From positions 5,084,001 to 5,148,000 of the forward strand of contig NZ_CP087196.1 of the NCBI RefSeq assembly GCF_024749285.1: DNA of 64,000 nucleotides, read 5' to 3'. A program made the translations under genes and the position numbers. Origin of the DNA: Pseudomonas sp. B21-015 (GTDB lineage Bacteria > Pseudomonadota > Gammaproteobacteria > Pseudomonadales > Pseudomonadaceae). The notes beneath the pieces were generated by a model, which saw nothing but the letters and a program-made list of their open reading frames with translations, ran no database searches and had not been told where the DNA came from. Shown piece after piece: positions 10,001 through 51,341 of the stretch (its first letter is position 1; each line of letters begins with the position of its first letter).

Positions 10001-10238
10001 ACCGATCATCATGACCTCGCTCGCATTCGTGCTCGGCGTGGTACCGCTGGCCATTTCCACGGGCGCAGGTTCGGGTAGCCAACATGCGATCGGAACCGGG
10101 GTGATTGGCGGTATGCTCACGGCCACGATCCTGGCGATCTTCTGGGTTCCGTTGTTCTTCGTCACCGTGTCGTCCATGGGCCAGCGCAAAGTCGCCGACC
10201 AGGATGACGCCATTGAAACTTCTCAAGAGGCTGGCTAA
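7077..10238 (+). CDS. emhB: RND efflux inner-membrane transporter EmhB/TtgB
   Basis: 1053-residue HAE1-type RND proton antiporter, equal in length to MexB/TtgB. It begins [17 protein letters not shown] and has 12 expected membrane segments with two large periplasmic loops. The proton-relay Asp pair is visible in [16 protein letters not shown] in TM4, and motif [17 protein letters not shown] lies near the C-terminus. It exports hydrophobic antibiotics, dyes, solvents or aromatic hydrocarbons through the adaptor and EmhC. The ATG is 3 bases after the emhA stop, and the stop overlaps the emhC ATG by one base. Confidence 0.95.
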
Positions 10239-11698
10239 TGAGCAAGTCGCTACTCTCCCTCGCAGTCGCCGCCTTCGTGCTGGGTGGCTGCTCGCTGATA
10301 CCCGATTATCAGCAGCCTGAAGCACCGGTGGCGGGCCAATACCCGCAAGGCCCGGCGTATTCGCCGGCCCAGGCACCCAACCAGGCCGCCGCCGAACAGG
10401 GCTGGAAGCAGTTTTTCCACGACCCGGCATTGCAACAGCTGATCCAGACCGCATTGGAGAACAACCGTGACCTGCGCGTCGCGGCGCTGAACATCGACGC
10501 TTATGCGGCTCAGTACCGCATTCAGCGTGCCGATCTGTTCCCGGCGGTTTCGGCTACCGGCAGCGGCAGCCGTCAGCGGGTTCCGGCACGGGCTTCGCAA
10601 ACCGGTGAAGCGGGCATCACCAGCTCCTACTCGGCCACCGTCGGCATCAGTGCCTATGAACTCGACCTGTTCGGTCGGGTGCGCAGCCTGAGCGAAGAAG
10701 CACTGCAGAAATACTTCGCCACTGAAGAAGCGCGCCGCAGCACACAGATCAGCCTGGTGGCCAGTGTGGCCAATGCCTACCTGACCTGGCAGGCCGACAA
10801 GGAGCTGTTGAAACTGACCCAGGAAACCCTCGGCGCCTACGAGGAGAGTTTCAAACTCACCTCGCGCAGCAACGAAGTGGGTGTAGCCTCGGCGCTGGAT
10901 CTGGCCCAGTCGCGTACCTCGGTGGAAAACGCCCGCGCGCAACAGGCCAAATACACCCGTCAGGTTGCCCAGGATGAAAACAGCCTGGTGCTGCTGCTCG
11001 GCACCGGTATCCCGGCCAATCTGCAAGCGGCCAAGCCACTGTCGGACGACCTGCTGAGCGAAGTGCCGGCCGGCCTGCCGTCGGATTTGCTGCAACGTCG
11101 TCCAGACATCCTTCAGGCCGAGTACAACCTCAAGGCTGCCAACGCCAACATCGGCGCGGCGCGGGCTGCGTTCTTCCCGAGCATCAGCCTGACCGCCAAT
11201 GCCGGCTCCCTGAGCCCGGACCTTTCCGGTCTGTTCAAGGGCGGTTCGGGCACCTGGTTGTTCCAGCCGCAGATCAACCTGCCGATCTTCAACGCCGGCA
11301 GCCTGCGCGCCAGCCTGGATTACTCCAAAATCCAGAAAGACATCGGCGTGGCGAACTACGAGAAGTCCATTCAAACGGCCTTCCAGGAAGTCGCCGATGG
11401 CCTGGCCGCACGCCAGACCTACACCGAGCAGTTGCAGGCTCAGCGTGATTTCGTCAGCGCCAACCAGGACTACTACCGTCTGGCCGAGCGTCGTTACCGC
11501 ATCGGCGTCGACAGCAACCTGACCTTCCTCGACGCCCAGCGCCAGCTGTTCAGTGCCCAACAGGCGCTGATCACCGACCGTCTGGCGCAGCTGACCAGTG
11601 CGGTCAATCTGTACAAGGCGCTGGGGGGTGGCTGGAATGAACAGACGGCGAAGAACGAGCCGTTGAAAGAAGAAGCGCCGAAGATGAAGTTGTTCTGA
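10238..11698 (+). CDS. emhC: RND efflux outer-membrane channel lipoprotein EmhC/TtgC
   Basis: 486-residue OprM/TtgC-type outer-membrane factor. The signal peptide ends in the lipobox LGGC (Cys at about residue 18), so the protein is acylated. Two OEP repeats follow (about 60-250 and 280-470), with the family signature [35 protein letters not shown] split across the second repeat. It forms the trimeric beta-barrel/alpha-barrel exit duct for EmhAB. The start overlaps the emhB stop (TAATG), and a strong terminator follows 17 bases after the stop. Confidence 0.94.
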
Positions 11699-11714
11699 TA
11701 GCGCGGTAAACACG

Positions 11715-11756
11715 AAGCCCACCAAACGGTGTAATGGCCAAATGGTGGGCTTTTTG
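11715..11756 (+). terminator. Intrinsic terminator after emhC
   Basis: AAGCCCACCA ... TGGTGGGCTT followed by TTTTG; a 10-bp stem with an 18-base loop. It ends the emhABC operon and lies just before the tail of the convergent RiPP operon. Confidence 0.85.
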
Positions 11757-11785
11757 TTGGCCATGAAAAAGGTAACGCGTTCGTA

Positions 11786-13756
11786 TTACCTCCCAACCCC
11801 ATTCACCAGAAACACCGGCTCTTCCAGATAATCGAGCCCCAAGCGGTTTTCGAACATTTCGTCGCGTAACGCCGCCGTGGTGAAACAGCCCAGATCCAAG
11901 GCGGTGGCCAGCAGCGAAAAGGTCTGGCTCAGATGCCCGGCATCCATCAGCGCCACCCGCAGTGCCCGGCTGAATTCGTATTTCCAGGCCATCCGTTCGA
12001 CCCGCGCCGTGGAAACGAACACCGCCGCCGCGTCCTTGATCCACGGCTGCCCGCCACAAGCCTCGCTGATCCAGGCTCGCGGATCTTCCAGGGACAGCAA
12101 CTCAAGCCCGTGACGACGTACCGAATAGTGGTAAAGACCTCGCTCGAAACCCTGCACATTCATCAGCACCGCATACACCTCGGTGCCTTGCAGTGAACCG
12201 CCGGCCGGCGAGGTTTTTTTCAGGAAGTAGTCCCCCATGCGGTTTTGCTCCACGACCGTCGCGCCCCAGGTGTAATAGAGCAACAGAGACAACTGTGCCG
12301 AACTCAACGGCTGGTCACTGAAGGTTCGTGACGTGCGGCGATTGCACAGCGAGTCTAGCAACGCCGGCTGAGCAATCGCGCAGGGAGTCAGTAGCGGGTT
12401 TTCCAGGGCAATGAACGGATGGGACCCATAGTCCTTGAACGCCGAGGGCTGGCGTTGCGCCGAGGCCCTTTGCTCAAGCTCCGTTTCCAGCTCGGCAACG
12501 CTGACATAGGGCGTGTGCGAGCCGGTCCGGGTACTCAGGTAAAACTCCAGCGCCGCATCCCAGTGGGCCCAAAGGTCAAGCGGATGTTTGCACTCGTCGG
12601 GCGGGATAATGTCCGATTGATTCGCGACGGGCAGCAAAACCTCGTGGCTGACCAGCGTCCTCAGGAACGCCAGGTTGTCGTCCTGTGCAGGGCTTTGCAA
12701 AACACCCGGCAGCAACAAGGCACTCTCCAGCGTCTGTGGGGTCAGGAAGTGGCGCAGTAACGGCAGAAACGTCACGTCGAACGCCAGGCTCAGGTCCTGC
12801 TGCCGATCCCGGATAAAAAACGATGCCGAGCCGACACTGAGCCAAGTGTTTTCCCTGAGTTTCAACAGAGTCTGCGCACCCTCCGCTGGCGTCTGTTGCG
12901 CGCCCTGTTGATCGCTCCCCTGCCAGAACAGGGCCTTGGGTCTCAAGGACTTGATGGCCTTGATCAACGTCGACAGTTCCGCGTCATCGGCTTTGCGGGA
13001 AATATCCCATTCAAGGGTGATCGCTTTCACCGGGGATGTTGCAAACAACTGACGCAAGATATCCCAATCCCGCCGCGGATGACCGGTGTGAATTTCAATC
13101 AGCCGGTCCAGCGGCAACGACCGCAAATAGTCGTTCAGGTCGTAACCCTGGGTTCTGGCCGTCGTGATCGCGCTGTCGAGATCCAGCAGAAAGCCCGAGC
13201 CGCTGCGCTCCACCACACTGGAGATGAACTCGCCTTCGGACTGCGCTTGTGCATCGTGCAATGAAAACAACCGCGGCGCGTTTTCCAGCACCAGCAGCGT
13301 TGCCGTGAGTTCCCGCAGTTCAATGGCATTGGCCACCACCGTGTCAGCCACCTCTTGGGCCAAGGTCGGCAAAATGAAGTGCTGAATGTCGCCACCGTGG
13401 AAACGCGACCAGGAAATATGCTCGGCCAGCCACGGCGAACGGGTCTTGTCGCACAGTCGCCGCGTCATGCGCAGAAACTCGCGATCCATCGCGATACCCA
13501 CGCTGCCCAGGGACAAACTGGACGAATGCAGCAAGCTCGGCACTTGGGCGCTGACCTCAAGCAGACGAGGTTCCAGAATGCAGTGCGTCGGCTGAAACTC
13601 GACGTAATCGAAATGCGGTAAACCCTCGGCGAGAATCCGTTCGACAGTCTGGTCGAGTCCATGCTCCGACAGATCATCCTGAAGGCTGTGCCGTGGCAAA
13701 TGGTATTCCAGCCCTACCCCGGCCTCGGGATAGGGCGAGGCATCAAACATCCCCAT
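11786..13756 (-). CDS. DUF692/MNIO oxidase fused to SagB/ThcOx-type flavin dehydrogenase
   Basis: 656-residue two-domain protein. Residues ~10-270 are a divergent DUF692 (multinuclear non-heme iron oxidase) TIM barrel: VGLEYH, LLHSSSLSLGS (H77), AEHISW (E112/H113), VLENAP (E158), GFLLDLD (D192/D194), IEIHTGH (H223/H226) and ITLEWD (E249) line up with the classical metal-ligand blocks, but the usual DVNN is replaced by DLDS. Residues ~390-656 are a SagB/ThcOx nitroreductase-fold domain: CNRRTSRTFSDQPLS, LLLYYTWGAT, TSPAGGSLQGTEVY, GLYHY and a C-terminal ALDLGCFTTAALRDE block, with FMN expected. Residues ~280-390 link them and could hold a peptide-binding element. A GGGAGG site 5 bases before the ATG supports this start. 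It is the last gene of the RiPP-type operon, 16 bases after the HExxH gene. Both domain families modify ribosomal peptides, so a two-step oxidation of the precursor is inferred. Confidence 0.88.
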   Translation of the reverse strand: MGMFDASPYPEAGVGLEYHLPRHSLQDDLSEHGLDQTVERILAEGLPHFDYVEFQPTHCILEPRLLEVSAQVPSLLHSSSLSLGSVGIAMDREFLRMTRRLCDKTRSPWLAEHISWSRFHGGDIQHFILPTLAQEVADTVVANAIELRELTATLLVLENAPRLFSLHDAQAQSEGEFISSVVERSGSGFLLDLDSAITTARTQGYDLNDYLRSLPLDRLIEIHTGHPRRDWDILRQLFATSPVKAITLEWDISRKADDAELSTLIKAIKSLRPKALFWQGSDQQGAQQTPAEGAQTLLKLRENTWLSVGSASFFIRDRQQDLSLAFDVTFLPLLRHFLTPQTLESALLLPGVLQSPAQDDNLAFLRTLVSHEVLLPVANQSDIIPPDECKHPLDLWAHWDAALEFYLSTRTGSHTPYVSVAELETELEQRASAQRQPSAFKDYGSHPFIALENPLLTPCAIAQPALLDSLCNRRTSRTFSDQPLSSAQLSLLLYYTWGATVVEQNRMGDYFLKKTSPAGGSLQGTEVYAVLMNVQGFERGLYHYSVRRHGLELLSLEDPRAWISEACGGQPWIKDAAAVFVSTARVERMAWKYEFSRALRVALMDAGHLSQTFSLLATALDLGCFTTAALRDEMFENRLGLDYLEEPVFLVNGVGR

Positions 13757-13772
13757 GTGAGCCTCCCTGGCA

Positions 13773-14933
13773 TCAAGCGGTCATACCCAGCAAGCGTTGT
13801 TGCTCAGCCTCAGCCCCCGATATCGCCAATAGCCCGGCATACTGGCTTTCCAGCGATTTGACCTCTTTGACCAGGTTTTCCATCAGCTGACGTCCCTGGG
13901 GGGTGAAATCAGTGCTGGCTTCGAAATCCGGCACCGCCTTGATCAAGCCTTGCAGAATGAACACAAGACGGTTTTGCGCCCGTTGCAGCTCCTCGGACGA
14001 ACGCGAACGAACCCGCCCCAGGTATTTGACCAACGCGATGTACACGAAAAACGCGTGGAAGTAGCCATAAAAGTCACGCTTCTGTCCCGACCACGGCAAG
14101 GCGAACAACGGCTCCCGCGAGGTCTCTTCCTTAACGACCGGGCACACCTCGACAATGTGATAGAGCAACTGATGAGTAGCCTCGTGCACCAGAGACTCTT
14201 CCAGATCGAGTATCGAATCATCCCGGCTCGACAAGAGGATGATTCCGGTGAAGCGGGAAGCCGAACAGCTTCGAAATGAACCATCGGGTAAATAAAAAAT
14301 CGACTTGACCAGCTTTTTAAATTGTTCGCGACAGGCAGGCCAGGTGTGTTCTATGCGCAACAGGGCAATATTCACCACATCGCAAAAAAAACGCACGGAG
14401 TAACCGCTACGTTCCAACTGTTTGCGGACTGTTTCATCTTCCGGAAACTCATAGCTGGGAGGCATTACTATCGCAACCAGCGGATCGACATCAAACCGAT
14501 GCACGGGAGGACAATAATGATTCGCGCGAGGACTGTCCGTCGCTTTAACGCGCAGTAGCATCTCTGGAAATTCGAACAACATTTTTTCCAGCTCACCCCT
14601 GTCCTCCGTCTTTTTCGTTATGACCAGGTTGGCGTAATGAGCCGTCAGCACATTCCACACTTGAAACACCGGATCATTAATAATCAAACGCTGTTCCCGG
14701 GTGGGAGGAACGATAAGATTAAACGCCTGCTCAAAGAAATCCGCCAAATGCGGGGCATTGGGAAACAATTGAAAAAGCTCGGTGTACAGCGCAACAAAGC
14801 TGGTGTAGCGATTTCGACTGACACGCTCCAGCAAGACTTCAAATCGCGAAAGCTCCGAATCCGGAAGGAAGGTCGTACCCTGAAATAAATCGTCGACCGA
14901 TAGCTCACGTTGACCACTGTTACCGATGTCCAT
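13773..14933 (-). CDS. HExxH-type putative peptide beta-hydroxylase
   Basis: 386-residue protein of the HExxH family associated with RiPP clusters. The motif LVHEATHQLLYH places H250, E251 and H254, followed by the family block REPLFALPWSGQKRDFYGYFHAFFVY, split here at residues 273-298, with H293 as a probable third metal ligand. Members were first listed as putative peptidases and some are now known as 2-oxoglutarate-dependent beta-hydroxylases of precursor peptides; that activity is inferred here. Helical N-terminal and C-terminal parts flank the core, with no signal peptide. A GGAAGG ribosome site precedes the ATG. The gene sits 14 bases after the GNAT gene and 16 before the MNIO-SagB gene. 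Parts of it (14280-14930) are visibly more AT-rich than flanking chromosome, which suggests transfer. Confidence 0.82.
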   Translation of the reverse strand: MDIGNSGQRELSVDDLFQGTTFLPDSELSRFEVLLERVSRNRYTSFVALYTELFQLFPNAPHLADFFEQAFNLIVPPTREQRLIINDPVFQVWNVLTAHYANLVITKKTEDRGELEKMLFEFPEMLLRVKATDSPRANHYCPPVHRFDVDPLVAIVMPPSYEFPEDETVRKQLERSGYSVRFFCDVVNIALLRIEHTWPACREQFKKLVKSIFYLPDGSFRSCSASRFTGIILLSSRDDSILDLEESLVHEATHQLLYHIVEVCPVVKEETSREPLFALPWSGQKRDFYGYFHAFFVYIALVKYLGRVRSRSSEELQRAQNRLVFILQGLIKAVPDFEASTDFTPQGRQLMENLVKEVKSLESQYAGLLAISGAEAEQQRLLGMTA

Positions 14934-14947
14934 TTCTCAACCTTCCC

Positions 14948-15424
14948 TTAGGCTGGCGGCAATGGCTTCGCCATCGTCAGACTGGCAATGCCATAACCCG
15001 ATTGTTCATAAAGACGACGCGCCGCATCGTTGCGGCCAAAGACATGCAACCGCACTTCCTCGCATCCCGCCTGGCGTGCCCATGACTCCAGGGCCAGCAG
15101 CGATTGCTTTGCATAACCCTGACGACGCACGTCGGGGTCAATGTAAATGTCCAGGATGAAGGCGATCCGACCAGCACCGGCCTGTCGTTCGGCGACCCAT
15201 AATTCACCGATGCGCCGAGCTTGATCCTTGATCACCCAGAGTTGATTTTTTTCAGTCAGTCGCCCTTGCGGCAACAATTGCTCGAAGACACTTCGTGCTT
15301 TTTGCGACGCCTCCTCTCGAACCCACTCGCCCGCAGCGACCATGCCGTCGCCATATTCAGCAAGGGCTCTTTCAGCAAACGTAACAAAGTCCGCGTCATT
15401 CATTGGAGCCAAGGTGACAGACAT
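14948..15424 (-). CDS. GNAT-family N-acetyltransferase in the RiPP cluster
   Basis: 158-residue single GNAT domain. The acetyl-CoA loop is visible as DPDVRRQGYAKQSLLALESWA (positions ~97-117, key residues Q/RxxGxA), followed by the family's LHVFGRNDAARRLYEQSGY. The substrate is unknown. Its place between the precursor and the HExxH gene suggests either N-acetylation of the mature peptide or self-protection, but a moonlighting housekeeping acetyltransferase is possible. A GGAG lies 10 bases before the ATG. It starts 111 bases after the precursor stop, beyond a strong hairpin. Confidence 0.82.
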   Translation of the reverse strand: MSVTLAPMNDADFVTFAERALAEYGDGMVAAGEWVREEASQKARSVFEQLLPQGRLTEKNQLWVIKDQARRIGELWVAERQAGAGRIAFILDIYIDPDVRRQGYAKQSLLALESWARQAGCEEVRLHVFGRNDAARRLYEQSGYGIASLTMAKPLPPA

Positions 15425-15472
15425 GAGTCATTCACTCCGTGCTCGAGCGCTTTACATCATGAATTCAATAAA

Positions 15473-15524
15473 GCCATTCGGCGTACCACCGAAAAAGCCA
15501 ACCTTGCGTGGCACGCCAAATGGC
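15473..15524 (-). promoter_or_regulatory. Hairpin between precursor and modification genes
   Basis: On the transcribed strand the arms GCCATTTGGCGTGCCAC (15524-15508) and GTGGTACGCCGAATGGC (15489-15473) form a 17-bp stem with an 18-base loop. The only two imperfect pairs are U-G wobbles on this strand; on the opposite strand they would be C-A and A-C mismatches. It is followed by a weak U-rich stretch (GGCTTTATT). It could act as a partial terminator or 3'-end stabiliser that keeps precursor mRNA in excess over enzyme mRNA. Confidence 0.75.
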
Positions 15525-15535
15525 ATCGCCGGCCT

Positions 15536-15799
15536 TTAATCCATTCGCGCCTGTTGCTGCTGGTTCTGTGTATCAAATACCGCGCGGATTCCCAGGTTGC
15601 TCCGGATTCCAGCGGAGGCTGCCGTCAGTTTTGCAGCATCCATACCTTTAACCGCCGCGATCTCATCAGTACTTAAGTGCACGCCAATATTTTTAGCGGC
15701 ACCGGCCGGATCTTTGTGAAGTTCAGTGGCGAATTTCTCGTCCAGCACGGCGCGTCCGAGAACCGAGGCCAAACGTTCCTGATTGACTTTATTACCCAT
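15536..15799 (-). CDS. Os1348/NHLP-like RiPP precursor peptide
   Basis: 87-residue peptide. A longer frame reaches 15961, but the ATG at 15799 has a strong AAGGAG site at 15807-15812, 7 bases upstream, and begins a leader-like sequence. Residues 7-57 resemble leaders of the Os1348/NHLP clan: QERLASVLGRAVLDEKFATE, then a DP motif (KDPAG), then LSTDEIAAVKGMDAAKL. Residues ~58-87 form a Cys-free probable core, ASAGIRSNLGIRAVFDTQ followed by NQQQQARMD, ending in a C-terminal Asp. It has no signal peptide and no GG or GA double-glycine junction that I can assign with certainty. The order precursor, GNAT, HExxH, MNIO-SagB in one direction supports the role. Candidate modified residues are the Asn, Asp, Gln and Phe side chains and the terminal Asp87; the structure of the product is unknown. 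Confidence 0.8.
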   Translation of the reverse strand: MGNKVNQERLASVLGRAVLDEKFATELHKDPAGAAKNIGVHLSTDEIAAVKGMDAAKLTAASAGIRSNLGIRAVFDTQNQQQQARMD

Positions 15800-16414
15800 G
15801 GCACTTCTCCTTGTTATTTCGGCATGACTAAAAAAACCCCTGACGAAGCATGCGATTTCCCTTTCCCCGCCTGAGGATTTTGAATATAGCAAGGCCTCTT
15901 TTCTTTTCCAGCCACATCCACGATTCCCTTTAAATCTTTTCACGATAACCGACAACACCAATCCTTAAGTTTAACTGGCGATTATCGACAGACCTTTAAT
16001 GACAGAAAGAGCCGTAGGAAACTTCTTACAACCAAAGCATTAAGCACATCCATCCAACTTCAACATAAACAAAGCGCCATTAATAAAACGTAAACCCGGA
16101 CACCCATTATCGCCCCGGATAACTATTGGATTTAATTAAGAATGCCTCATACCGTCCATGACCGGGCTGGCGCCCATTAGCGTTCGATAATCGCCCAAAA
16201 CCCCATCCACCCAATTGAATCCCCCCGCCCATCCCTCGCACCATTGCCCGCACCTGCAAAAATCAATAACAACAAGGTCCGACACCATGACTACGCGCCC
16301 TCCCCACTCTGGCTGATCTCGCCCGATCCTTTTTCCCGTTCGATTTTTTGTCTGCGACCCCTCGGTTGCGGCTGTGTACTGCTTCATCCCTGACAATTAG
16401 AGAGACCCGAGCCC
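15800..16414. other. AT-rich intergenic region between the RiPP precursor and the OprD gene
   Basis: This 615-base divergent gap must hold promoters for both directions. The segment 15820-16140 is clearly richer in A and T than its surroundings. On the minus strand TATATT (15888-15883) could be a -10 element about 85 bases before the precursor ATG, but no convincing -35 accompanies it. Open frames inside, such as 16136-16396 on the minus strand, show no family features and no ribosome site. No operator can be assigned. Confidence 0.5.
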
Positions 16415-17674
16415 ATGACTTCCTCCACCACGCAGTATTTGTTTCCCAGCCTGATCGCCATCGCACTGGCCGGCGCGGCCCTGCCCGCCATGGCCGAGGA
16501 AGCCGGTTTTGTCGAAGGTGCCAAGGTCAACCTGAACCTGCGCAACTTCTACATCAACCGTAACTTCACCAACCCGACCAAGACCCAGGGCAAGGCTGAA
16601 GAGTGGACGCAGAGTTTCATCCTCGACGCCAAGTCCGGGTTCACCCAGGGCACCGTCGGGTTCGGCATGGACGTGCTGGGTTTGTATTCGGTCAAGCTCG
16701 ACGGCGGCAAAGGCACCGGCGGTACGCAGTTGCTGCCGCTGGATCACGACGGTCGCCCGGCGGATAACTTCGGTCGCACCAATGTGGCGTTCAAGGCCAA
16801 GCTGTCGCAGACCGAAGTGAAGGTCGGTGAATGGATGCCGGTGCTGCCGATCCTGCGTTCGGACGACGGTCGCTCGCTGCCGCAAACCTTCCGTGGCGGC
16901 CAGATCACCTCGAAGGAAATCGACGGGCTGACCCTCTACGGCGGCCAGTTCCGCGCCAACAGCCCGCGGGACGACAGCAGCATGAGCGACATGTCGATGA
17001 CCGGCAAAGCGGCGTTCACCTCAGACCGCTTCAACTTTCAGGGTGGCGAATATGCCTTCAACGACAAGCGCACCCAGATCGGCCTATGGAATGCTGAGCT
17101 CAAGGACATCTACAGCCAGCAATACGTCAACTTGATCCACACCCAACCGCTGGGCGACTGGACGCTGGGCGCCAACCTCGGGTTCTTCTACGGCAAGGAT
17201 GACGGCAGCGCCCGGGCGGGCGAACTGGACAACAAGACCTGGTCGGGCCTGTTCTCGGCCAAATACGGCGGTAACACCTTCTACGTCGGCCTGCAAAAAC
17301 TCACCGGCGACAGCGCCTGGATGCGGGTCAACGGCACCAGCGGCGGCACCCTGGCCAACGACAGCTACAACGCCAGCTATGACAACGCGAAGGAAAAATC
17401 CTGGCAACTGCGCCACGACTACAACTTCGCCGCCCTGGGTGTACCGGGCCTGACCCTGATGAACCGCTACATCAGCGGCGACAACGTCCATACCGCAACC
17501 ACCAGCGACGGCAAGGAATGGGGCCGCGAAAGCGAACTGGGCTATACGGTGCAGAGCGGCACGCTGAAAAACCTCAACGTCAAATGGCGCAACTCGACCA
17601 TCCGCCGCGACTTCAGTAACAACGAGTTCGACGAAAACCGGTTGATCGTCAGCTATCCGATCAGCCTGCTGTAA
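16415..17674 (+). CDS. OprD-family outer-membrane porin
   Basis: 419-residue OprD/OpdK-type porin with a signal peptide (MTSSTTQYLFPSLIAIALAG then ALPAMA cleavage site). An 18-strand beta-barrel is expected, and the C-terminal residue is Leu after a short aromatic-rich strand. Family signatures include GFVEGAKVNLNLRNFYINRN and the long GGQITSKEIDGLTLYGGQF block. OprD proteins take up small carboxylates and basic amino acids. Because the gene borders the pca cluster, an aromatic acid such as 4-hydroxybenzoate or protocatechuate is the likely substrate. It is transcribed convergently with pcaC, with two REP elements in between. Confidence 0.9.
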   Translation: MTSSTTQYLFPSLIAIALAGAALPAMAEEAGFVEGAKVNLNLRNFYINRNFTNPTKTQGKAEEWTQSFILDAKSGFTQGTVGFGMDVLGLYSVKLDGGKGTGGTQLLPLDHDGRPADNFGRTNVAFKAKLSQTEVKVGEWMPVLPILRSDDGRSLPQTFRGGQITSKEIDGLTLYGGQFRANSPRDDSSMSDMSMTGKAAFTSDRFNFQGGEYAFNDKRTQIGLWNAELKDIYSQQYVNLIHTQPLGDWTLGANLGFFYGKDDGSARAGELDNKTWSGLFSAKYGGNTFYVGLQKLTGDSAWMRVNGTSGGTLANDSYNASYDNAKEKSWQLRHDYNFAALGVPGLTLMNRYISGDNVHTATTSDGKEWGRESELGYTVQSGTLKNLNVKWRNSTIRRDFSNNEFDENRLIVSYPISLL

Positions 17675-48857: not shown

Positions 48858-48918
48858 CTCTAGAGCGGTAAGCAAGCACAAACGCTTGCCAACCCAAGCT
48901 CAATTTCGGAGAAACATC

Positions 48919-49224
48919 ATGACTGCTACCACCCGCACCCTGTCCGCCACCGCCCTGGTTCTGGCCCTCGGTTCTGCCCTGAGCATCGCCGCCGTGTCGA
49001 CTGCCCATGCCGCTGACGCCAACATGGAAAAATGCTTCGGCGTGGCCATGAAAGGTCATAACGATTGCGCCGCAGGCGCTGGCACCACTTGCGCCGGCAC
49101 CGCCAAAATGGATCACCAGGCCAATGCCTGGAAACTCGTCCCGAAAGGCACCTGCATGACCACCGAGAGCAAGACTTCGCCAACCGGTTTCGGCCAGATG
49201 GAAGCCTACAAAGCCAAGTCGTAA
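48919..49224 (+). CDS. bufA: Bufferin-type precursor (DUF2282), BufA
   Basis: 101 residues from the ATG at 48919 with GGAG 7 bases upstream. It has a Sec signal peptide ([18 protein letters not shown] then STAHA cleavage) and then a short mature part with the four Cys typical of the family at positions 39, 50, 58 and 79: [32 protein letters not shown] and LVPKGTC. In bufferins the MNIO converts Cys residues to thiooxazoles, and the exported peptide binds copper. The next three genes complete the operon. Confidence 0.88.
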
Positions 49225-49249
49225 TCAGCCCCCAGCCTGAGTGTCGACC

Positions 49250-50104
49250 ATGAACAATTCATTCTCCGGGCTCCCGCCCCGCTCCGGGCTGGGGCTCAAG
49301 ACCGAGCACTTTCGTGAAGTGCTCGGTGCACAACCGGACATCGGTTTCTTCGAAGTCCACGCCGAAAACTACATGGTGGCCGGCGGCCCGTTTCATCATT
49401 TTCTGGGGTTGATCCGCGAGCAGTATCCGCTGTCGCTGCACGGTGTTGGCCTGTCCATCGGTGCCGAAGGTCCGCTGGATGCTCGGCACCTGCAAAGGCT
49501 TGCCGCGCTGATCGAGCGCTATCAACCCCAGTCCTTTTCCGAACACCTGGCCTGGTCCAGCCATGGCCCGGTGTTTCTCAACGACCTGCTACCCCTGGCC
49601 TACGATGCGCCGACGCTGAACCGCGTCTGCGAGCACATCGATCAGGTGCAGAGCACCCTCAAACGTCCGATGCTGTTGGAGAACCCGGCGACGTATCTGG
49701 CGTTCCAGCGCTCGACCCTGGACGAGGCCGACTTCATCAGCGAAGTCGTTCGCCGCACCGGCTGTGGCCTGCTGCTGGACGTCAACAACGTCTACGTCTC
49801 CTGCATCAATCATCAAAGAAATCCCCTGGCCTACATCGACGCACTGCCGCTGCACGCAGTGAGTGAGATTCATCTGGCCGGGTTTGCCGAAGACACCGAC
49901 AGCCTTGGCGACCGTCTGCTGATCGACGATCACGGTGCGCCCATCGATAACGCGGTATGGGCACTGTATCGGCGGGTGCTGGAACGAGTTGGCCCGATCG
50001 CCACGTTGATCGAGCGCGACAATCAGTTACCGGCCTTCAGCGTGCTGCATGCCGAAGCCCGTCAGGCTGATGCGTTGCTGCATTGCGCGGGGAGCCGATC
50101 ATGA
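49250..50104 (+). CDS. bufB: DUF692 multinuclear iron oxidase BufB
   Basis: 284 residues from the ATG at 49250; a GTG 9 bases earlier is an alternative. A canonical MNIO TIM barrel: [20 protein letters not shown] (H64), FSEHLAW (E98/H99), LLENPATYL (E144), [14 protein letters not shown] (D177, N179/N180), SEIHLAGF (H208) and LIERD (E255), all classical iron-site blocks. It modifies Cys of BufA with help from BufC. Compared with the MNIO domain at 11786-13756, this one keeps every usual motif. It overlaps bufC by 4 bases. Confidence 0.92.
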
Positions 50105-50859
50105 GCACTCAAGCCGCGTTTGCCGCCGCCCTGCTCGATCCGCAACGGCCCTGCCCCGACGGCTTGTTCAGTGCCAACGGCGCCGATCCCGCCAGCCGTT
50201 TCGCGGTGTATCGCAACAATGTGCAGAGCTCACTGATCAACGCATTGGCGGATAGCTACCCAGTGGTTTTGCAGTTAGTCGGTGATGATTTTTTCCGGGC
50301 GATGGCGGGGTTGTATGTGCAGAGTTGCCCACCTCAAAGCCCGCTCATCAACGACTACGGCAAGGACTTCGCCGAGTTCATCGACCGCTTTGAACCGGTA
50401 GCCAGCGTGCCTTATCTGGCCGACGTGGCGCGACTGGAGCGGTTGCGCGTTCAGGCCTATCACGCCGCCGACGCCCAACCCCTGAGCCATGAACAGATCA
50501 CCGCCGCGTTGTCGGACCCGCAAGCGCTGAGCGAGCTGACGGTCGGCCTTCATCCCTCCCTGAATCTACTGACTTCAGCCTTCGCGGTGGTTGCGATCTG
50601 GGCGGCCCATCAACAGGACGCGACGCTGACCGGAATCGACCTCGACCACGGGCAAAACGCGCTGGTATTGCGCAATGGGCTGGAGGTTGAGGTGTTCGCC
50701 ATCGACCACGGCGCCAGCACATTCATTCAGAACCTGCAAAACGGCCAATCCCTGACCCAAGCATTAGAGACAGCGCCCGCCTTCGACCTCAGCCAAACCC
50801 TGGCGCTGCTGATCAGCCACCACGTCATCACCCATTTACACCACAAGGTATCGCCATGA
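50101..50859 (+). CDS. bufC: DUF2063 MNIO partner protein BufC
   Basis: 252 residues starting at the ATGA overlap with bufB. The N-terminal DUF2063 domain ([21 protein letters not shown] and [20 protein letters not shown]) is found beside DUF692 genes and is thought to recognise the precursor and present it to the MNIO; a C-terminal wing-like region follows. It was once annotated as a DNA-binding protein. It overlaps the DoxX gene by 4 bases. Confidence 0.88.
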
Positions 50860-51341
50860 ACAGTCGCCAGAACCCCATCGCCCGTGCCATCGCGCTGCTG
50901 GAAAAAATCCCCCACAGCCTGATCGCGTTTATCGCGCGCTTTTCCATTGCCGCGGTGTTCTGGAAGTCCGGGCAGACCAAAGTGGAAGGCCTGGCCATCG
51001 ACTTGATCGACGGCACCTTTGAAGTCGGCGTACCACGGCTGGCGGGCTCGACTATTCCGTTGTTTCAGAGCGAATATCACCTGCCACTGCTCTCCCCGGA
51101 ACTGGCGGCGCACCTGGCGGCCTTCGCCGAGCATTTCTTTCCGGTGCTGATTCTGATCGGCTTTGCCACACGTTTTTCGGCGCTGGCACTGCTGGGTATG
51201 ACGCTGACTATTCAGCTGTTCGTGTACCCCGATGCCTATCCGACTCACGGTACTTGGGCGGCGGTGCTGCTGTACTTGATGGCGACCGGGCCGGGCAAGT
51301 TGTCGATTGATCATCTGATTGCCAAGCGTTACGCCCGCTAA
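50856..51341 (+). CDS. DoxX-family membrane protein of the bufferin operon
   Basis: 161 residues with four hydrophobic spans. IARFSIAAVFWKSGQTKVEG is the conserved DoxX start, and the loop between spans 1 and 2 is periplasmic. DoxX proteins often end DUF2282-DUF692-DUF2063 operons; a redox role in the membrane is suspected. Translation is coupled to bufC by the ATGA overlap. Confidence 0.88.
   Translation: MNSRQNPIARAIALLEKIPHSLIAFIARFSIAAVFWKSGQTKVEGLAIDLIDGTFEVGVPRLAGSTIPLFQSEYHLPLLSPELAAHLAAFAEHFFPVLILIGFATRFSALALLGMTLTIQLFVYPDAYPTHGTWAAVLLYLMATGPGKLSIDHLIAKRYAR

Follow-up and report, generated by a model that had tools for sequence, protein, structure and literature searches.

Four adjoining open reading frames were analysed in the genome of Pseudomonas sp. 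B21-015, within a stretch of 64,000 nucleotides (the window; contig NZ_CP087196.1, positions 5,084,001 to 5,148,000). All four lie on the minus strand between window positions 11786 and 15799, with intergenic gaps of 111, 14, and 16 bases. They encode, in the direction of reading, an 87-residue precursor (15536..15799; homologue of PflA, PosA, and Os1348) of a ribosomally synthesised and post-translationally modified peptide (RiPP); a GNAT acetyltransferase of 158 residues (14948..15424; homologue of PflB and Os1349); an alpha-ketoglutarate (alphaKG)-HExxH enzyme of 386 residues (13773..14933; homologue of PflC, PosC, and Os1350); and a fusion of an MNIO domain with a SagB-like nitroreductase domain, 656 residues long (11786..13756; homologue of PflD and Os1351). 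A preliminary description of this DNA had named the same four genes with the same strand and spacing and regarded them as an undescribed RiPP cluster. The open reading frame coordinates and family models scoring above their curated cut-offs bear out the genes and the RiPP type, and the novelty is lost, as the same set stands in PMC7726476 (2020), in PMC12452194 (2025), and in PMC12636437 with the biochemistry of pfl and pos. It is highly probable that the cluster is a functional-looking member of this Os1348/pos/pfl family that works by the mechanism proposed below. Gene content, order, motifs, and conservation were observed in the present analysis, and the chemistry and the dependence on GacA come from the orthologues.

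The precursor is matched by NF038399 (NH_RiPP_Os17) with 74.6 bits against a cut-off of 40, and the chain of PDB entry 6lk7 aligns with its entire length, residues 1-87 (E 1.3e-30). This chain is presumably the Os1348 protein whose crystals PMC7726476 describes, with 85 residues and the same Os17 tail. The cut-off of the general NHLP model TIGR03793 is missed (12.6 against 50.9), so the earlier term "NHLP-like" is a fair one; the Pfam model Frankia_peptide is missed as well (29.4 against 48). The precursor is free of cysteine, and its last residues, 75-87, form the tail FDTQNQQQQARMD (15539..15577, minus strand), which contains a Phe-Asp pair, a Gln run, and a C-terminal ARMD. A putative RsmA/E site, AAGGAG (15807..15812, minus strand), is located at the ribosome-binding site, the same element having been named for Os1348 (PMC7726476).

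The acetyltransferase is matched by PF00583 (61.7 bits against 20.7) and was found only alongside the fusion in the loci examined. The HExxH enzyme is matched by TIGR04267 (109.4 bits against 40) and by the structure chain of ChlH (8s5f, E 4e-10), and motif comparison places an intact metal motif, HEATH, at residues 250-254 (14172..14186). The fusion is one frame in which PF05114 (98.2 against 25), PF00881 (55.3 against 23.5), and TIGR03605 antibiot_sagB (115 against 78.4) all pass their cut-offs. Its MNIO match covers residues 42-226 (13079..13633), is shared with the DUF692 structures 8hci and 3bww, and includes His77 of the motif LLHSSSLSLGS. The His of LLHSSS is invariant across 19 fusion rows from 18 distinct genomes, is residue 77 in both the window and relative L004, and is taken to be His73 of PflD, with a numbering offset of four. 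The nitroreductase part spans residues 464-655 by TIGR04511 SagB_rel_DH_2 (11792..12367) and residues 487-656 by TIGR03605, with structural matches to 3eo7, 5lq4, and 8pz5. The fusion misses the cut-off of TIGR04511 (158.6 against 240) and those of the characterised MNIO equivalogs ApyH (92.8 against 400), BufB (85.4 against 310), and HvfB (65.1 against 360). The window's own genome also encodes a stand-alone SagB-like dehydrogenase in a 380-residue frame (G000:C1:433003-433605), which is 37% identical to the C-terminal part of the fusion.

The chemistry of the family has been described for pfl of P. fluorescens CH267 and for pos, the later name of the OS3 cluster of Pseudomonas sp. Os17 (PMC12636437, a 2025 preprint that the reference list of PMC13060819 cites as J. 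Am. Chem. Soc. 2026, 148, 3551; PflD is cited in that paper too). Beta-hydroxylation of the Gln run is the work of PflC and PosC, which also remove ARMD oxidatively so that a C-terminal amide remains; PflD forms Z-dehydroPhe with its nitroreductase domain and a beta-hydroxyl on the next Asp with its MNIO domain (PMC12636437). These findings also bear on a conventional azole-type pathway (thiazole/oxazole-modified microcin, TOMM), to which a SagB-family domain above its cut-off could belong. Such a pathway is rejected as virtually impossible here: no cyclodehydratase lies beside the fusion, the flanks being emhC and an OprD porin (YcaO was not searched for in the rest of the genome), the precursor offers no cysteine, and the nitroreductase domain of PflD desaturates Phe (PMC12636437).

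For the window peptide, the tail changes can be predicted from these orthologues. The folded leader would recruit the enzymes, the MNIO domain would hydroxylate Asp76, and the nitroreductase domain would desaturate Phe75 to Z-dehydroPhe. With Fe(II), alphaKG, and O2, the HExxH enzyme would add beta-hydroxyls to Gln78, Gln80-83, and probably Asn79, because a PosA variant with Asn for Gln in the run was still modified completely and its Asn hydroxylated (PMC12636437). It would then oxidise the alpha-carbon of Ala84, and cleavage before this residue would release ARMD and leave Gln83 as the C-terminal amide. The calculated mass change is -378.2 Da with six hydroxyls or -394.2 Da with five for the HExxH enzyme alone, and -364.2 or -380.2 Da, respectively, for the HExxH enzyme together with the fusion; identical arithmetic for four hydroxyls gives -410.2 Da, the published PosA value (PMC12636437). 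The leader would be trimmed by a host protease encoded outside the cluster, and the acetyltransferase would acylate either the peptide after trimming or one of the newly formed hydroxyls. We infer the same chemistry for the window copy from its orthologues, and likewise the role and everything said here of trimming and of the acetyltransferase.

The preliminary description had reported no protease, transporter, or regulator, and none of these genes lies between the flanking emhC and oprD in the window. The missing protease would suit a different end product, namely the modified protein at full length: its leader, a stable folded domain, would keep the hydroxylated and amidated tail, and the whole would act intracellularly, for instance in signalling or the handling of metals. 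Full-length precursor is present in Os17 lysates, the protein crystallised as a dimer, and the possibility is named in PMC12636437. The same paper states that every previously characterised RiPP loses its leader or follower, and that the acetyltransferase leaves the full-length peptide unchanged, as would be expected if acylation follows trimming (PMC12636437). A full-length product is accordingly considered rather unlikely, and a trimmed peptide is preferred.

A pattern scan for the fusion, with each species represented by one genome, found 11 loci. The preliminary description would have been refuted by enzyme homologues that consistently lack a precursor-like peptide; for the fusion this is not the case at these loci, a precursor being present in 11/11. 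The four genes stand in the same order at every locus, with gaps of 96-113, 14-15, and 15-16 bases, and such conserved order and spacing are not chance. The scan relied on exact matches to peptide patterns and passed over relatives whose fusions are 63-65% identical, so 11 loci is a lower bound. Among 95 genomes searched for the fusion, the window's own was the only one with a whole-length match. NF038399, run against 398 genomes of the genus including that of the window, exceeded its cut-off in 16: 11 have the full type, six have a type of two genes, and one has both. In two of the 11 (G255 and G119), the precursor, acetyltransferase, and HExxH gene were seen and the fusion was taken from the equated L003 and L004. 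The full-type set comprises 19 distinct genomes, that is, the window, L001-L011, and L078-L084 (L085 repeats L010). Outside Pseudomonas, fusions with 45-49% whole-length identity occur, one named Allosphingosinicella and one Terriglobales, among the best 7999 candidates by shared words.

This patchy occurrence of the full type (11/398), together with a fusion that matches as two pieces in different frames in relative L083, might be expected of a decaying remnant that makes no product. Decay is very improbable for the window copy: open frames and start-site spacing are conserved in the window and in 11/11 loci, the motifs are kept, and the orthologues are active (PMC7726476; PMC12636437).

RsmA/E probably represses expression of the precursor, with GacA lifting the repression. 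AAGGAG is found at -13 of the precursor in the window and in 17 of the 18 other full-type genomes (L011 has ATGGAG), ANGGAN is present in 19/19, and an Os17 gacA mutant had no detectable precursor protein (PMC7726476). The role may be a weak antibacterial contribution, as in Os17, where deletion of the precursor or the fusion gene shrank the inhibition of Bacillus subtilis from 7.0 to 5.0 mm and from 6.8 to 3.5 mm, respectively, and where chromosomal complementation (strain delta-1348 + 1348) regained the wild-type halo, 6.9 vs. 6.8 mm (PMC7726476).

Several observations weigh against a working peptide pathway of this kind in the window. In Os17, deletion of the acetyltransferase or the HExxH gene did not lower the antibiotic halo, plasmid complementation failed, and deletion of the emhB homologue increased both activity and 2,4-diacetylphloroglucinol; export by Emh is therefore not shown (PMC7726476). 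In the published work on pfl and pos, PflB caused no mass change, PosD was inactive in E. coli, and PflC and PosC only incompletely modified each other's precursor (PMC12636437). The Asn inside the Gln run of the window tail is found in neither PflA nor PosA (PMC12636437), and the window copy itself is known from its sequence. A related candidate, the Emh pump as part of the operon, was dropped: emhC is convergent, and its end is kept without the cluster in relatives (emhA and emhB were surveyed at loci carrying the cluster).

The neighbours themselves are not counted in the cluster. On the fusion side is emhC, encoding an efflux outer-membrane protein (10238..11698, plus strand, convergent), and on the precursor side is a gene for an OprD-family porin (16415..17674, plus strand, divergent). 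emhC stands on the fusion side in 18/19 full-type genomes, within 140 bases in 14 and at 0.8-4.5 kb in four (L005, L006, L007, and L009), and the porin stands on the opposite side in 17/19; L010 (P. batumici) has neither in the examined stretch, and L078 has no porin. In L006, a second emhC tail beside a partial match to the fusion gene was seen at 11551-11993, approximately 1.6 kb past the intact cluster, perhaps what is left of a duplicate or of another cluster at this site.

emhC-like DNA was found in 59/59 genomes searched, and the site was compared in stretches from the window and 29 other genomes. No cluster genes are present in the emhC-side stretches (1.5 kb) of these 29 relatives, and in 22 of them a porin match follows emhC within 1.5 kb; the other seven lack this adjacency. 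In the 22, the match to the window ends at 11699-11761 and resumes at 16178-16182 in 20 and at 16399 and 16478 in two. A block of approximately 4.4 kb (approximate extent 11732..16180) is present or absent at the emhC-oprD site. The DNA around the precursor and inside the HExxH gene had been called AT-rich, and the lower GC is real (precursor 52.7% and HExxH gene 51.6% against 59.6% for the window; acetyltransferase gene 56.2%, fusion gene 59.5%); acquisition of the cluster between emhC and the pca region had been suggested. The present or absent block supports an insertion there, with loss in the relatives as the alternative. In relatives L003 and L004, the part that begins shortly ahead of the precursor and ends where the fusion gene starts is 70-88% identical to the window; the upstream flank reaches 80-97%, and the fusion gene itself 84-94%. 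The precursor, acetyltransferase, and HExxH gene are more diverged than the flank and the fusion gene, as though the three had moved together in one exchange.

Six genomes (L072-L077) carry the two-gene type, in which a precursor (45-52% identity) precedes an HExxH gene (54-57% identity). Neither acetyltransferase nor fusion has a match in 13-19 kb around these loci (the acetyltransferase was not searched genome-wide), and the rest of the genome contains no fusion-spanning match in five of the six; in the remaining one, identified as P. batumici, the full cluster lies on a different contig. In 6/6 the precursor diverges from a gene encoding a LexA protein (TIGR00498 above its cut-off in L072), and L075 has, farther on, a gene for an error-prone DNA polymerase (NF004225). 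None of the six precursors has ANGGAN within its 70 upstream bases. The palindrome GTACATTTGTAC is conserved in 6/6, approximately 350 bases from the precursor start, and LexA control of the two-gene type is not claimed because the palindrome sits on the lexA start codon itself.

A database search for precursors gave 64 matches, of which P0234 has no tail, leaving 63 tails for comparison. The signature LRIDEV occurs in 17/63, including all six two-gene precursors and no full-type precursor examined (gene surroundings of the 17 were examined at the six loci). At the cleavage point these 17 have Val in 11, Ile in four, Met in one, and Ala in one, so that Ala is replaced in 16/17; among L072-L077, five of the six have Val or Ile, and FDQQQVRTD is an example of a two-gene tail. 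The sole Ala belongs to L073, whose tail reads PQQARTN and whose HETTH is replaced by HETTQ, and this cluster may be decaying. The other 46/46 tails retain Ala, as ARMD in 42 and AQMD in four (surroundings were examined where these correspond to the 19 full-type genomes). In sequence terms, this natural split fits the PosA variant A91V, in which Val was hydroxylated and the tail stayed uncut (PMC12636437); Ile and Met are absent from the variants in the parts of that source consulted. The chances seem evenly balanced that the family has split into a cutting and a non-cutting branch, with the two-gene branch yielding a full-length, beta-hydroxylated, uncleaved tail. If so, a single natural substitution would divide a hydroxylase product from an amidated one, and the acetyltransferase and fusion would serve only the cutting branch. 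The residue before Asp in the 46 Ala tails is Phe in 37, Leu in six, Val in two, and Trp in one; Phe is missing at this position in 11/63 tails, nine of them Ala-type. Precursor P0220 (Leu) and fusion P0071, which may share a genome, suggest that clusters with non-Phe tails carry a fusion, and members with Leu, Val, or Trp might make other dehydro-residues. The two-gene type is undescribed in the titles and abstract openings among the literature matches listed, and VRTD is absent from the main text of PMC12636437, whose supplement (Figure S1) may show the type. With Ala present in 46/46 tails that lack the two-gene signature and replaced in 16/17 that have it, this comparison provides natural evidence on hydroxylation versus backbone cleavage and is more useful than the window copy itself.

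A second MNIO cluster is present in the window at 48886-51341 on the plus strand, with genes for a DUF2282 (bufferin-type) precursor, an MNIO, a DUF2063 partner, and DoxX in a row; it looks like an ordinary bufferin copper-stress cluster.

One of the closest known systems is OS3/pos, in which Os1348-1351 are these four genes in identical order beside emhC, with AAGGAG at the ribosome-binding site and a solved precursor structure, 6lk7 (PMC7726476). Its identity to the window, as measured on L079, is 64% for the precursor, 58% for the HExxH enzyme, and 63% for the fusion; L079 is presumably Os17, its precursor match lying inside the published Os1348 coordinates. The pfl cluster likewise has the precursor, acetyltransferase, HExxH enzyme, MNIO-nitroreductase, and a tail with Phe-Asp, a Gln run, and ARMD (PMC12636437), and the tail published for PflA, LGTAAIFDQQQQIQARMD, recurs in relative L004. 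In contrast to PflA, the window tail FDTQNQQQQARMD has Thr after Asp, and five Gln and one Asn where PflA has five Gln and one Ile; the paper also counts two transporters, PflE and PflF, whereas the window's neighbour on the fusion side is the convergent emhC. The combination of an HEXXH protein adjoining an MNIO-nitroreductase fusion is tabulated as 'Adjamnio-III - MNIO/nitroreductase' in PMC12452194, in a row of 11 sequences with one sentence of text, precursor and chemistry not being given in the part consulted. PMC12710340 mentions MNIO and SagB and, in its excerpt, has no bearing on the cluster. The nitrilobacillin cluster pes of Peribacillus simplex similarly pairs an MNIO for Asp beta-hydroxylation with an alphaKG-HExxH enzyme, but its MNIO is separate and has a partner protein, and it possesses a nitrile-forming enzyme and its own peptidases and transporter (PMC13060819). 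The window cluster is a further copy of a known, characterised system and not a new one; it allows a characterised oxidative peptide-tailoring pathway to be annotated in another Pseudomonas and gives exact predicted mass changes for a tail with an internal Asn.

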